Virus record (IMG/VR): IMGVR_UViG_3300030329_006583
Coordinates: 124,001-188,000 of that record
Strand: one strand, 5' to 3'
Origin: a virus
Length of the DNA stretch: 64,000 nt
A program made the position numbers and the translations under genes. Positions 12,517 through 59,733 of this stretch are shown here, piece by piece. Below the pieces are notes generated by a model. It saw only the letters and a list, made by a program, of their open reading frames with translations. It made no database searches and was not told the DNA's origin. How positions within the stretch are numbered: the stretch's first letter is position 1; each line of letters starts with the position of its first letter.

Positions 12517-12834
12517 TCAGTCAATATCGAGCATGGTAGGGGTACCGGTATCAATATTGTTCGCCAACCTGATCCTGTTAATGTGCTCTGCGGTTTGTCT
12601 AGCAAAATTATTTGCATCAACCTCTGAATTAAATGTATTTAAAGCTGTGGAAAGTTTTGGGTTAAAGAAACATGTAACTTGGGCAAACCATTTAACACCA
12701 TTGGCATCTGCATATACATCAATTTCCATACCTGGATAATCTTCATAAGAATATGGGTCATTATCCAAGGTATGATAGTTTCTCCCTATCTCTTCCCGGA
12801 TTAACTTTCTTATGAAATTTCTTAAGATTTGCAC
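12517..12834 (-). CDS. Protein with capsid-targeting-like N-terminal peptide
   Basis: 105 residues with a GTG start at 12834. The N-terminus MQILRNFIRKLIREEIGRN is a short basic amphipathic helix ending in IREE, like the 55.6-58.7 kb cluster; the I-R-E resembles a T4-type prohead protease site. The rest is a small alpha/beta domain with VKWFAQVTCFF. It is the only member of that set outside the cluster. Confidence 0.6.
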   Translation of the reverse strand: MQILRNFIRKLIREEIGRNYHTLDNDPYSYEDYPGMEIDVYADANGVKWFAQVTCFFNPKLSTALNTFNSEVDANNFARQTAEHINRIRLANNIDTGTPTMLDID

Positions 12835-55589: not shown

Positions 55590-55838
55590 CTATTTTTCTT
55601 CCTTGGATTTGGCGCTCCATTGATCTTTGGGCAATAATTTTTCAATTTTGAACTTTAAGATAGATTTTCCATTGACTGTAGGGTGTCCATGTTCATCTTC
55701 ACCAATTTCTTTTACAATTGTGCGCTTATTTTTAAATCTTCCGGTTAAAATCACATCGCCCGGCTCAAGATCTAACGTTAACGCTTCACGAATAAGATTT
55801 CTTAATTTTTTATTGGTGGTTTTCATTTTAGCCTTCAT
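55590..55838 (-). CDS. Capsid-targeting-like peptide fused to SH3-like protein
   Basis: 82 residues from ATG 55838. MKTTNKKLRNLIREALTLD is the shared amphipathic peptide (IRE site), followed by LEPGDVILTGRFKNKRTIVKEIGEDE, a GDVI/GxV SH3-like segment. It is the one gene that joins the two families of this window. Confidence 0.65.
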   Translation of the reverse strand: MKAKMKTTNKKLRNLIREALTLDLEPGDVILTGRFKNKRTIVKEIGEDEHGHPTVNGKSILKFKIEKLLPKDQWSAKSKEEK

Positions 55839-55974
55839 CCTTGTTCCACGGAGCATTTGAATCTTCTATCATAGAAACTATGCTCTTTTCAAACCCCCGT
55901 GCCGCAAGCCATGCCCCCACAAACATCCCGGTACTAGTGCAAAAAATAATTAGCAGCACAATCCCCCAGCTCAC
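55828..55974 (-). CDS. 48-residue membrane peptide, GTG start
   Basis: GTG 55974 with GGGGC upstream, overlapping the previous stop. A hydrophobic helix (WGIVLLIIFCTSTGMFVGAWL), then an acidic tail. Confidence 0.58.
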   Translation of the reverse strand: MSWGIVLLIIFCTSTGMFVGAWLAARGFEKSIVSMIEDSNAPWNKDEG

Positions 55975-56210
55975 TTGATAGCCCCTTTTATCTCAGCATG
56001 CAAATCTTGGGCTTTTTTTAACAATTCGGGATCTGGAGGGTTGTCCCATTCCCCCCACAGAGCCGCAACAACGTCAGACATCGCATCAGAAGCGACCTGG
56101 AAAGGATCACTATTGGATTGTGATGGCTGTGCAGCAGGTTTCTTGCCCCAGAATTCTTCCAGCACAGACTCCTTAATGATTCTTCTGAGTTGTTTCTTTG
56201 AGACTTTCAT
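55971..56210 (-). CDS. Protein with capsid-targeting-like N-terminus
   Basis: 79 residues from ATG 56210 (GGAGAAG upstream). MKVSKKQLRRIIKESVLEEFWG, with IKE as possible cleavage site; the rest is acidic and helical (DAMSDVVAALWGEWDNPPDPELLKKAQ). Confidence 0.65.
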   Translation of the reverse strand: MKVSKKQLRRIIKESVLEEFWGKKPAAQPSQSNSDPFQVASDAMSDVVAALWGEWDNPPDPELLKKAQDLHAEIKGAIK

Positions 56211-56644
56211 CTTCTCCACCTTCCCCCACCGAACACGCTTCGAAAGAGCTCGTCAGTTTCTTCCCATGACAAGGAGTCAATATAATTAGTGAGACCGACA
56301 CCATAGCCTCTTTCTGGGAGAGTCGCCAATACATCTTCTTGAATTTCTTTCCAGGTATATTTGACACCCGGCTCGCGGATTCCCTTCCACCAGCTTATAA
56401 GTTGCTGCTTGACTTTGGGATCAACTGGAGTCATTGCTTCCTTGATGATTCTTCTGAGCTGGTGCCTGGTAATTCTTATTTCTTTGAGCTCTTCCTCTTC
56501 TTCATCCTTGTCAATTATAGCTTTCTGGAGTTCATCCGGTAACTTTGTTTGGTCACCCTGGAGGGCCGGATCAGCATTGTACTTGATGGTTGCCTCGGCT
56601 TCTTCCCGGATGATTCTTCTGAGTTGTCTCTTTGTGATTTTCAT
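56207..56644 (-). CDS. Protein with two capsid-targeting-like peptides
   Basis: 145 residues from ATG 56644. MKITKRQLRRIIREEAE at residue 1 and a second copy IRITRHQLRRIIKEAM at about residue 49, separated by an acidic stretch. The C-terminal part has WKGIREPGVKYTWKEIQEDVLATLPERG and FRSVFGGGRWRR. The tandem peptides suggest a polyprotein cut at each site, or a fusion of two such genes. Confidence 0.68.
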   Translation of the reverse strand: MKITKRQLRRIIREEAEATIKYNADPALQGDQTKLPDELQKAIIDKDEEEEELKEIRITRHQLRRIIKEAMTPVDPKVKQQLISWWKGIREPGVKYTWKEIQEDVLATLPERGYGVGLTNYIDSLSWEETDELFRSVFGGGRWRR

Positions 56645-57096
56645 CGATTCGGTCCTTCTGCCCACACCATAAAATTATGCAAGAACCACGGTGGGATAAC
56701 AACATCACCCACGTTCCGACCGGTGGCGATCACATCGTCTTGCCCGGTGCCGGAGCCAATGGCCATAACAGTGAGCTTCTCATTTTCGGGTACCACAACC
56801 CATTCTGCTATGCTTTCCCCTTCGTAACGAGCTAATTCAACCGGAGCTTGAGCCATGATGACATCCCCTCGTCGCACGTAATCCCTGATCTCTTTTGGTG
56901 ACATCATGATTTCTTCAGGATTTTGAATCTCTTCTCGCAATAGCGTTTCTCTAATAAGCTGTTTAAGCTTTGTTTTTGTAATTTTCACCACTCTCTCCTT
57001 GACCTGGCCTTGTTTTTCTTCGTCTTCCCATTTCTGTGCCATTTCAGGATCATTGGCCCACATCCACCGTCTCTGTTTTTCTGATTTAAAAGGCAT
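56641..57096 (-). CDS. KSEKQRRWMWAN protein with internal targeting-like peptide
   Basis: 151 residues. N-terminal MPFKSEKQRRWMWANDPEM is a motif recurrent in proteins of large tailed phages; then an internal VKITKTKLKQLIRETLLREE at about residue 37. The C-terminal domain (GDVIMAQAPVELARYEG..IPPWFLHNFMVWAEG) is unrecognised. Cleavage at the internal site would release the C-terminal domain. Confidence 0.68.
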   Translation of the reverse strand: MPFKSEKQRRWMWANDPEMAQKWEDEEKQGQVKERVVKITKTKLKQLIRETLLREEIQNPEEIMMSPKEIRDYVRRGDVIMAQAPVELARYEGESIAEWVVVPENEKLTVMAIGSGTGQDDVIATGRNVGDVVIPPWFLHNFMVWAEGPNR

Positions 57097-57762
57097 TTAA
57101 AATTCCTCGCTATCCCTTTCCACAATGTATGCGCCTGTTCCACCCGTACCGGAATTCAAAGAATCCTCAGCGGTTTCATATGATAAAAAGATCATAGGTT
57201 GACCTGTGTGGGTGGTAACTTCCTGTCCTGCGGGTGTATAAATAACATATTCCTCAAAATTGTCACTTTCACTTATCGGTACGCCTAAGGCCGGGGCCAG
57301 ATTTTCTTCAAGGGATTCACACATCTCTAAAGGGGTGTTATCTTGTCCCTTGGCCAGGCGCCGGCTTTTATCCACCTGACCTTTATACTCTTTGGGATCA
57401 ACCACTTCCCCGTGTCCCCACGCTCGACCTTGATGATGTGCCAAATCTTCAGGGGTACCAGGCCAGGGCTGCCCTTCAATATGCCCCTTAGGGAGATCGG
57501 CATAGTATCCTTCTTCTTTTATAATTTTTCTCAATTGTTTGAGTGTTATTTTCATTTTGGTTTCCATAATTTTTCCATGAATGGCAAAGTGAGAATTAAG
57601 CGACCAAAAAAACCGTTTCAGTTCTCCAAAAGGAACCTTTCCATAAGCATCATTTGCTGCATCTAGGATAGCCTGTAGTTTTGGGCGTCTCTGCGATCTG
57701 CTTGGCGCTGCATTTAGCTCTTCATTAATGATCTTTCTTAATTGGCGCTTGGTTAATCTCAC
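57097..57762 (-). CDS. Protein with two capsid-targeting-like peptides
   Basis: 221 residues. MRLTKRQLRKIINEELN at residue 1 and METKMKITLKQLRKIIKEEGY at about residue 65, then a polar domain ending SGTGGTGAYIVERDSEEF. Like the 145-residue gene, it carries two signals. Confidence 0.68.
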   Translation of the reverse strand: MRLTKRQLRKIINEELNAAPSRSQRRPKLQAILDAANDAYGKVPFGELKRFFWSLNSHFAIHGKIMETKMKITLKQLRKIIKEEGYYADLPKGHIEGQPWPGTPEDLAHHQGRAWGHGEVVDPKEYKGQVDKSRRLAKGQDNTPLEMCESLEENLAPALGVPISESDNFEEYVIYTPAGQEVTTHTGQPMIFLSYETAEDSLNSGTGGTGAYIVERDSEEF

Positions 57763-57763
57763 T

Positions 57764-58000
57764 TTAAACCCTACCTGTTCTGCGTTTCCACGCCATGATC
57801 ATCTTATCCACGTCATGTAGATTCGAATCTTGGTGTTTTTCCCATAATTGCCGGGGGGACATCGTTAACCCATGTTTCCGCACCAAATCTGTTGCATCAT
57901 CCATTGTGAATGTTCCACCTATGTCATGATGATAAGAGCGATACTGTTCCCTTAGGGCCTTCCTAATCAATGTTCTAAGATGTTTGCCCTGGATATTCAC
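57764..58000 (-). CDS. Protein with capsid-targeting-like N-terminus
   Basis: 78 residues: MNIQGKHLRTLIRKALREQYR, possible LRE site; then a His-rich helical remainder (YHHDIGGTF, LRKHGLTMSPRQLWEKH). Confidence 0.64.
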   Translation of the reverse strand: MNIQGKHLRTLIRKALREQYRSYHHDIGGTFTMDDATDLVRKHGLTMSPRQLWEKHQDSNLHDVDKMIMAWKRRTGRV

Positions 58001-58002
58001 GC

Positions 58003-58326
58003 CTACATTTCCCCCATAGATTCCGCTAATCCCTCAGCGGCTCCTCTCAACCTACCGGCATCAAGGACGAGCTCATCGACACTTCTCCCTAACGATGCGT
58101 GATCTCCATCCTCCAACCACCCACTGTCGACATAATCCTCTGCAATACCCTCAAGCAGGTCCTCGACCTGCTTCAAACGTGTTGCAAATTCAGCGTAAGA
58201 TTGGGGATCGCCACTCTCTGTTCTAGAAGCAGCAATATTATCTTCAATTGCGGCGGCGATGCCAAGATCTGCCGGGGTCATCTGTTCCCTAATAATTCTT
58301 TTGAGTTGTTTCTTTGTAATTTTCAT
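58003..58326 (-). CDS. Protein with capsid-targeting-like N-terminus
   Basis: 107 residues from ATG 58326: MKITKKQLKRIIREQM, then an acidic helical body (EFATRLKQVEDLLEGIAEDYVDSG). Confidence 0.66.
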   Translation of the reverse strand: MKITKKQLKRIIREQMTPADLGIAAAIEDNIAASRTESGDPQSYAEFATRLKQVEDLLEGIAEDYVDSGWLEDGDHASLGRSVDELVLDAGRLRGAAEGLAESMGEM

Positions 58327-58454
58327 TATAATATCACCCACCCTAAAATCAAACCTTTAAAAAACGCCAACCACAACAGCTGATAGTTGGACCAATTGGT
58401 TTTATCTTGAACACATTTTATGCATCCTTTGTGCCATTCAATAAATTTATTCAT
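58326..58454 (-). CDS. 42-residue membrane peptide
   Basis: TAATG overlaps at both ends. MNKFIEWHKGCIKCVQDK (CIKC), then a hydrophobic helix (YQLLWLAFFKGLILGWVIL). Confidence 0.6.
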   Translation of the reverse strand: MNKFIEWHKGCIKCVQDKTNWSNYQLLWLAFFKGLILGWVIL

Positions 58455-58675
58455 TACCTACTCGCGTGATATGCTTGTAATGCATCTTCAGCATCACCTT
58501 TTGTGTCATAAGTTTGAGGCCAGAATTTGCCTGTTTTATTAGAAATAATACGCCACTTACCTTTGGAATCTTGATCAATACAACCAGATTCAGGGCACTT
58601 CCCCTTACCTGATTTATCTTCCAAAAGCAGCGCTTGTCTGATAATATTTCTTAAATGTGTTTCGTTAATTCGCAT
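58454..58675 (-). CDS. Protein with capsid-targeting-like N-terminus
   Basis: 73 residues: MRINETHLRNIIRQALLLED with LLE as the possible site, then KCPESGCIDQDSKGKWRIISNKTGK. It is first in transcription order of the run 58.7-55.6 kb. Confidence 0.64.
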   Translation of the reverse strand: MRINETHLRNIIRQALLLEDKSGKGKCPESGCIDQDSKGKWRIISNKTGKFWPQTYDTKGDAEDALQAYHASR

Positions 58676-59403: not shown

Positions 59404-59733
59404 TTATTTTCCGTAAGGAGTAGCTAAACCTTCAGATATCAACCACTTATTGACATTGACATCGTCAATAAAAATCTCTGCCAACCACCGACCGTACTTC
59501 CCGCGCTTATCTTTCTGGGTACGGATGACAACAGTTTTATTCCCTATTTTTTCACGTAATTGATCACGACTAATTAAACCGGTAGGACGTGATTCCCCTC
59601 TAATTTCAGGTGCATTGATACCCAACAATCGCAGTTTTTGTTTGCGTAACGTTACCCCAAACCCAAGATCAATGTCTGCGGTAACTGTGTCTCCATCATA
59701 GACCCTGCATATGTACGCTCGATATTCAAACAT
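59404..59733 (-). CDS. Thermonuclease (staphylococcal nuclease fold)
   Basis: 109 residues, short for the family (usually about 150). VYDGDTVTADID, KLRLLGINAPEIRG (catalytic Arg and acid), KDKRGKYGRWLAEIFID (second Arg) and NVNKWLISEGLATPYGK. Expected to hydrolyse DNA or RNA with calcium. There is no signal peptide, so it acts inside the cell. Upstream is a 186-base gap. Confidence 0.93.
   Translation of the reverse strand: MFEYRAYICRVYDGDTVTADIDLGFGVTLRKQKLRLLGINAPEIRGESRPTGLISRDQLREKIGNKTVVIRTQKDKRGKYGRWLAEIFIDDVNVNKWLISEGLATPYGK

Follow-up and report, generated by a model that had tools for sequence, protein, structure and literature searches.

The DNA analyzed here is a stretch of 64,000 bases (the window), corresponding to bases 124001-188000 of virus record IMGVR_UViG_3300030329_006583, which totals 267,118 bases; at window positions 55590-58675 it carries a run of short minus-strand open reading frames (ORFs) that share a basic, amphipathic peptide of the MKITKRQLRRIIKEE type, hereafter the class-1 leader. 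A preliminary description of this DNA had assigned the peptide to eight genes in this interval, with two copies in two of them and an internal copy in another, and we located ten copies on eight ORFs, with 56207-56665 and 57097-57762 as the double ones and 56641-57096 as the one with the internal copy (Table 1). The internal leader may be a real start, since AAGGAGAG-GTG-GTG lies directly upstream of it; the stretch ahead of it, MPFKSEKQRRWMWANDPEMAQKWEDEE, resembles what we take to be a short N-terminal motif common in phage proteins. Dozens of otherwise unrelated small proteins in this large T4-related marine phage share the leader, which probably acts as a tag that directs them into the head before being removed.

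We built a hidden Markov model (HMM) of the class-1 leader (26 columns, trained on 21 copies) and found 32 places in its own genome at E <= 10; for 25 of these, E is below 1e-4. These places cluster at genome 179.7-182.7 kb and 198.8-204.4 kb, with others at 211 and 248 kb. Thus, the eight genes stand, but the family is not confined to the nine that had been counted, with further copies at genome 198.3-211.3 kb and elsewhere. Since E values reach 2e-13 and composition-shuffled frames (five shuffles of 3,950 frames) gave 0 matches, compared to 179 in the real frames, the family is not due to chance. Removal of 20 of the 179 instances (score < 15 or offset < 0) left 159 distinct copies, and a requirement for at least 40 residues from the leader onward left 156 for the boundary tests described below; a start codon (ATG, GTG or TTG) opens 153 of these 156, and thus the element is a short leader at the N terminus. 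Among 35 identical-type leaders, the same residues are encoded by 34 distinct DNA sequences, and because diverse codons give the same residues, selection acts on the leader protein. A scan for late promoters ([TC][AG]TAAATA) around the head genes and leader clusters revealed no pattern. We also rejected a Sec/Tat export signal, since charges are spread along the class-1 leader (positions 2, 5, 6, 9, 10, 13 and 14, often 15, 16 and 18, by column counts) and leave no hydrophobic core of about 8 or more residues.

The gene at 12517-12834, counted earlier as the ninth member, does begin with a leader but is not among the 32 class-1 places of the genome, because its leader belongs to a second class, which we recognized through a leader swap. 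In the orthologue of the 55590-55856 product in L157, MKHLRQYIRQILLE replaces the class-1 leader, the remainder aligns without gaps, and E14 is kept. Judged by this alignment, leaders are swappable on one body, with class 2 in L157 compared to class 1 in the window gene. With a pattern built on the L157 leader we identified eight leaders of this kind, including four in the same genome as the window, and a class-2 HMM (consensus M[KN]LLREYIRELLxE) found 9 places in that genome and matches in 12 of 22 other records, in separate tandem arrays. After removal of 4 of 60 class-2 rows, [hydrophobic]-x-E stood at residue 13-15 in 55 of the remaining 56, a count that is partly circular as E14 belongs to the HMM; 2 more rows were removed before body alignment, leaving 54. 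We also note an HD_4 protein (L007:14732-15559; genome 204732-205559) with a class-2-like start that has no E site, MKLLRQYISEICGMAS.

Table 1. Leader-bearing ORFs in the window (window coordinates; first leader codon where given)
Feature	Position	Strand	First leader codon	Leader	Remarks
Class-2 leader ORF	12517..12834	-		VQILRNFIRKLIRE, then E	Class-2 HMM E 1.5e-7
Class-1 leader ORF	55590..55856	-	55826	MKTTNKKLRNLIRE, then A	Body GDVILTGRFKNKRT..., orthologues in relatives
Class-1 leader ORF	55971..56219	-	56210	MKVSKKQLRRIIKESVLEE	
ORF with two class-1 leaders	56207..56665	-	56644; 56479	MKITKRQLRRIIREE (56644)	Copy at 56479 internal, no start codon, ELKE before it
Class-1 leader ORF	56641..57096	-	56988	VKITKTKLKQLIRETLLREE	36 residues upstream of leader
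ORF with two class-1 leaders	57097..57762	-	57762; 57555	VRLTKRQLRKIINEE (57762); MKITLKQLRKIIKEE (57555)	
ORF with diverged class-1 leader	57764..58000	-	58000	VNIQGKHLRTLIRKALREQ	
Class-1 leader ORF	58003..58341	-	58326	MKITKKQLKRIIREQ	
Class-1 leader ORF	58454..58675	-	58675	MRINETHLRNIIRQALLLE, then D	Body domain KSGKGKCP...AYHASR

The gp21 prohead protease of T4 follows an L/I-X-E cleavage rule, as given in passages of PMC9026906, and the preliminary description had held that all copies of the peptide contain [IL]xE. This is so for 148 of 158 class-1 copies, in the form I12-x-E14, but that site is built into the motif, and it is the extra sites at residues 18-22 that are informative. Conservation across the 159 distinct copies is strong up to residue 14, weaker to residue 22 and at background beyond. 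Of the EE[KR]-type leaders (n = 52), 40 have an [ILVMF]xE that ends at residue 22 and 11 have one that ends at residue 21, and the column information is 2.31 at residue 22, 0.75 at residue 23 and about 0.3 farther on. Residue 22 is the site in 43 of the 156 copies, compared to 5.8 +/- 2.3 when residues 15-26 were shuffled within each sequence, and a site at residues 18-23 is found in 87 of the 156, compared to 32.1 +/- 4.6 after shuffling; the same 18-23 test with E replaced gave counts of 15 (D), 23 (K), 20 (R) and 8 (Q), and reversed order gave 21. The result was repeated in an independent set, 91 leaders picked on 38 other contigs by their first 12 residues only: 39 have a site at residue 22, and 46 of the 50 EE[KR] leaders have one at residue 21 or 22. 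In the diverged array of the 484-kb uncultured phage LR756508 (16 matches listed at E <= 1, 15 rows examined), 7 of 15 leaders end at residue 22. Thus, relatives also have a [hydrophobic]-x-E at a constant position, and conservation ends at the same residue, which bears out the position that the preliminary description had proposed to check, and the majority of copies, not all, appear to end their leader in L/I-X-E at a fixed place. E14 (I-[KR]-E followed by [EAS]) resembles the T4 site I-A-E, cut before A, and may equally be a helix feature.

A gp21-type protease and a scaffold had been anticipated elsewhere in the genome, and both a protease and a candidate scaffold lie on the minus strand in a head module that spans genome 38.5-50 kb, in the order terminase, Portal_T4, a 289-residue unknown, Peptidase_S77, the small unknowns P0005 and P0004, three more ORFs, an acidic 562-residue scaffold-like ORF without a family match, and Gp23. 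The protease, encoded at genome 45139-45747, matches Pfam PF03420 (E 1.8e-27 and 1.3e-26) and is accompanied by gp23 and gp20 homologues. This order is similar to that of the T4 head genes (20-67-68-21-22-23, by T4 annotation), except that the small core-like genes here follow the protease. The predicted propeptide of gp23 has 60 residues, ending VLRE then Q, compared to the 65 residues that T4 gp23 loses (passages of PMC9026906), and L-[RK]-E stands at the predicted cleavage place in 63 of 63 gp23 frames, which we recognized by a downstream motif in 80 protease loci. Four loci (L029, L030, L031 and L033) have tandem gp23 gene pairs, with an identical predicted LRE site in both.

We ran the class-1 HMM on the 23,707 stop-to-stop frames of these 80 loci, 79 of which have a recognized protease frame. 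Fourteen ORFs of at least 60 residues match, 11 of them within 1.5 kb downstream of the protease (79 loci), a zone that holds 374 of 5,435 ORFs, which gives p = 4e-11, an optimistic value as the loci are related. P0005-type proteins, which the class-1 HMM picks out unaided and which a pattern recognizes downstream of the protease in 56 of the 79 loci, start K[LIVM][ST][RK]xxLKx[LI][VI]KECLxEILxE, with [hydrophobic]-x-E (LxE) at residue 22 in 40 of 42 distinct sequences and G, A or S next in 42 of 42; the profile alignment of class 1 with this type is gapless and in the same register (E 6e-5). P0004-type proteins (53 of the 79 loci) start KLTPALLRKIVLEEK and align to class 1 with E 7e-4. We call P0004 and P0005 putative prohead core proteins by position and by likeness to T4 gp67/gp68 only; together with the scaffold-like ORF, they are candidate docking partners.

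We examined the occurrence of leaders in relatives. Class-1 matches at E <= 0.01 are present in 14 of the 30 records that were selected by their protease, and all six records of at least 180 kb carry 12-41 copies; some of the class-1-negative records have class-2 arrays (9 in G011, 10 in G017). Seven more records (167-289 kb), picked by leader DNA, carry 5-40 class-1 copies, and 7 of 7 have protease and gp23. Twenty contigs were picked by leader DNA alone; PF03420 was found in 8 and gp23 in the same 8, including 7 of 7 of those of at least 167 kb. Of the 13 shorter ones, a single contig (102 kb) has both genes; the other 12 lack both, as expected of fragments. In a collection of 84,980 species genomes from bacteria and archaea, three contigs have the strict class-1 DNA pattern; in one of these metagenome-assembled genomes (MAGs) an S77 protease lies on the same contig as many leaders, in a second on a different contig, and we interpret such contigs as phage contigs in bins. 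One of them, NHDW01000006.1 (L311, L314; 305,838 bases, Methylococcaceae MAG TMED69), has leader copies and probably belongs to a large phage whose DNA was binned with that of a bacterium; contig C5 of that MAG has many leaders and an S77 protease. A tblastn search for cultured carriers gave only LR756508 with the class-1 peptide, none with the class-2 peptide and nothing useful with P0005.

The bodies behind the leaders are unrelated, as described earlier: 145 class-1 ORFs fall into 83 body clusters, 64 of them singletons, and one 30-member cluster is inflated by internal leaders. Class-1 bodies are small (mostly 70-200 residues) and mostly without a known family. A Pfam search with the 145 ORFs (E <= 1e-3) matched only 4 families, each represented once (RMF, Med8, EF-hand and Mu-like_Pro), NCBIfam gave 1 match, PADLOC 0 and PHROGs 10 without function, and a repeat Pfam scan, on 10 chosen proteins, did not reveal which protein gave the RMF match. 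The predicted structure of one window body (A6; helix 3-15, then strands) has a predicted local distance difference test score (pLDDT) of 62, too weak for a structural search, and PDB sequence searches with A6 and A7 gave no convincing match; a search of viral contigs gave no relatives of the 57100-57555 product. Class-2 bodies are larger than those of class 1 (54 in 17 clusters), and their domains include Acetyltransf_1 (GNAT, three members), HD_4, DUF192, HAD-like hydrolase and SprT-like. In one class-2 body (L200:5602-6132), R34, S75 and E130 are conserved in three homologues, in a YRG...SW...ExE-like pattern, and we take this placement of R, S and E to be that of the R-S-E ADP-ribosyltransferases (ARTs; R / S-x-S / E-x-E). 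Its model is weak (pLDDT 64; best Z 7.2 to an ART chain, with a Foldseek E of only 0.03), and ARTs occupy nearly all top rows. T4 packages the ART Alt (passages of PMC9026906), and excerpts of PMC5512222 describe Alt as both packaged and injected.

Several further observations concern the arrangement of leaders and bodies. The body domain of 58454-58675 (KWRIISNKTGKxWPQTYDTKxDAEDALxAYHA) also occurs, leaderless, as the C-terminal end of larger phage proteins in other viral contigs (L164-L169). Leader-body-leader-body fusions in one frame are found in L122:7285-8949, L126:1978-2895, L132:547-1317 and window 56207-56665; some internal leaders of such fused units come after E-G-K/R (possibly a buried ribosome site), and one comes after ELKE. 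A tiny leader gene of ~40-50 residues with the tail FGSGM[ED]QA[ED]L is present in three phages (L008:1177-1305, which is genome 211177-211305; L122:14536-14709; L135:1684-1833), and in L008 and L122 the tail ends ELIGHT. Finally, window ORF 59404-59733, adjoining the leader cluster, encodes what we presume to be a thermonuclease-like protein of the staphylococcal-nuclease type.

The preliminary description had read the peptide as a capsid-targeting or prohead-protease signal, a reading supported by the presence of the protease, the fixed site in relatives and the diversity of bodies. At the level of sequence, three results favor capsid targeting: the stop of conservation at [hydrophobic]-x-E, the L-[RK]-E of gp23, and the same-register leader on the protein encoded beside the protease. 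We consider it likely, although well short of certain, that the leaders are cleavable head-loading peptides, functionally like the capsid-targeting sequence (CTS) of T4, and that the bodies are packaged and injected. During prohead assembly, the amphipathic basic helix of 14-22 residues at the N terminus would dock each protein on the prohead core; the gp21-type serine protease of the phage would then cut after [hydrophobic]-x-E at the leader end; and the freed, structurally unrelated body would stay in the head with the DNA and be injected at infection. Core docking, cleavage, packaging and injection are all inferred here, packaging and cleavage because no cultured relative with leader arrays was found.

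A number of observations weigh against this reading. No second site at residues 18-23 is present in 69 of the 156 class-1 copies, and such leaders would have to be cut at E14; likewise, 8 of the 15 LR756508 leaders have no site at residue 22. The gp23 and scaffold-like proteins have no leader at their start. The alignment of class 1 to the P0005-type proteins is a short match with an HHalign probability of 36%, and that of class 1 to class 2 by profile is weak (E 0.022, probability 1%). Class-1 matches at E <= 0.01 are absent from 16 of the 30 protease-picked records, all of at most 134 kb, and the class-2 HMM at E <= 0.05 had no match in 10 of its 22 records. The co-occurrence of leaders, protease and gp23 was counted without a matched background. 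Some class-2 bodies (HD, HAD, DUF192) could act in the cell, with packaging unneeded. The nearest cultured phages (Flavobacterium phage immuto, Microcystis phage Mel-JY01, Xanthomonas phage XacN1 and Rhodothermus phage RM378) lack leader arrays, and thus a T4-type head does not require them; we found no virion proteomics of a leader carrier.

We considered that the leader might stay uncut and act inside the cell as a tag for localization or docking, its amphipathic helix bringing many early or middle proteins to a single host or phage partner, such as RNA polymerase, the ribosome, the membrane or the replication site. The conservation of the core 14 residues with or without a second site, the ordinary enzymes among class-2 bodies, and one weak match to ribosome modulation factor (6.4e-6; 1 of 145 proteins) are consistent with such a tag, but conservation that ends exactly at a protease-type residue, a same-register leader in the gene beside the prohead protease, and the same type of site in gp23 all argue against it, and we regard it as unlikely. 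We find it harder still to believe that the leaders dock proteins on the prohead core, yet that these proteins are expendable scaffold filler, digested and expelled instead of delivered; the bodies are small and diverse, and T4 core proteins are cut to pieces by gp21 (passages of PMC9026906), but catalytic-looking class-2 bodies (GNAT, HD, HAD, ART-like) would be unlikely filler. It is very improbable that the common 5' end serves mainly as a handle for recombination in a gene-cassette array and has no role at the protein level: tandem arrays of short genes, the fusion of two leader-body units in one frame and the leader swap on one body fit such a handle, but synonymous diversity with the amino acids conserved and conservation in the distant LR756508 do not. 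RNA-level or recombination-only roles were likewise set aside.

If the leaders are head-loading peptides, a broader proposal can be made, which we offer tentatively and doubt somewhat more than we believe: an uncultured marine clade of the T4 superfamily (about 170-290 kb) may have made the CTS into a general cargo code, in which two leader classes, interchangeable with each other and either derived from a prohead core protein encoded beside the protease or shared with it, bring tens of different small proteins and enzymes (acetyltransferases, HD/HAD hydrolases, ADP-ribosyltransferase-like proteins) into every head. Were this true, the virion would deliver an effector cocktail before any phage gene expression. 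On the head-loading reading itself, one particle could bring a large mixed protein cargo into the host, and the head cargo of uncultured phages would be readable straight from sequence. For dozens of unknown proteins, it would become clear when and where they act, with injection at time zero, and the leader would add a modular tag for loading to those of T4 and P1. What large phages inject would become a directly testable question.

The system closest in its features is the T4 CTS (IPI, IPII and IPIII, and the Alt propeptide). In passages of PMC9026906, T4 has a short N-terminal leader on small proteins unrelated in sequence, ending in [IL]xE for a gp21-type protease, and prohead core genes that adjoin the protease gene, all as here; the internal-protein propeptides (10-19 residues) have core affinity, their removal frees the mature protein, and for IPIII the first 10 residues are enough for incorporation. 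However, the peptide is different (MKTYQEFIAE in T4, compared to MKITKRQLRRIIKEE...LLxE or MKLLREYIRELLxE), the leader is 14-22 residues long, large records carry 5-41 class-1 copies each compared to a few in T4, there are two leader classes, and a protein encoded next to the protease has a leader in the same register. In a T4 control, MKTYQEFIAE followed by A was read, with the exact pattern at two places in overlapping loci that give the same internal protein. The class-2 HMM had no match in the T4 record, and the class-1 consensus has no evident likeness to MKTYQEFIAE, a comparison made by consensus, as the HMM run on T4 was that of class 2 alone. Since likeness to the T4 leader sequence was not found, we conclude that this is a CTS-like system and, as far as tested, not the T4 CTS by descent. 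Thus, the earlier equation with the peptide of T4 internal proteins holds for the features of mechanism (short leader, LxE end, protease) but not for the sequence, and the system here is far more expanded.

Other phages share parts of this arrangement. In Salmonella phage SPN3US, gp45 and gp225 likewise have short N-terminal propeptides (20 and 24 residues) removed by the prohead protease, but in the passages concerned (PMC10052503) these are the only two short ones, found by mass spectrometry, with no repeated shared leader. The first 30 residues of P1 DarB similarly suffice to bring a reporter into the head, but the Dar proteins, as excerpts of PMC9024508 present them, have no shared consensus and no leader array. 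In the T-even internal proteins, too, bodies are highly diverse and only the CTS is conserved, but cargos are far fewer and are described, in excerpts of PMC3012670, as defense proteins against restriction enzymes. None of six leader strings was found in the open PMC subset, and literature on the CTS together with marine, metagenome or huge phages consisted, by titles and abstract starts, of T4, SPN3US, P1 and other work, none evidently on this leader. To our knowledge, what is new here, compared to these systems, is the scale (up to 41 class-1 copies per record), the two interchangeable classes and the same-register leader beside the protease.

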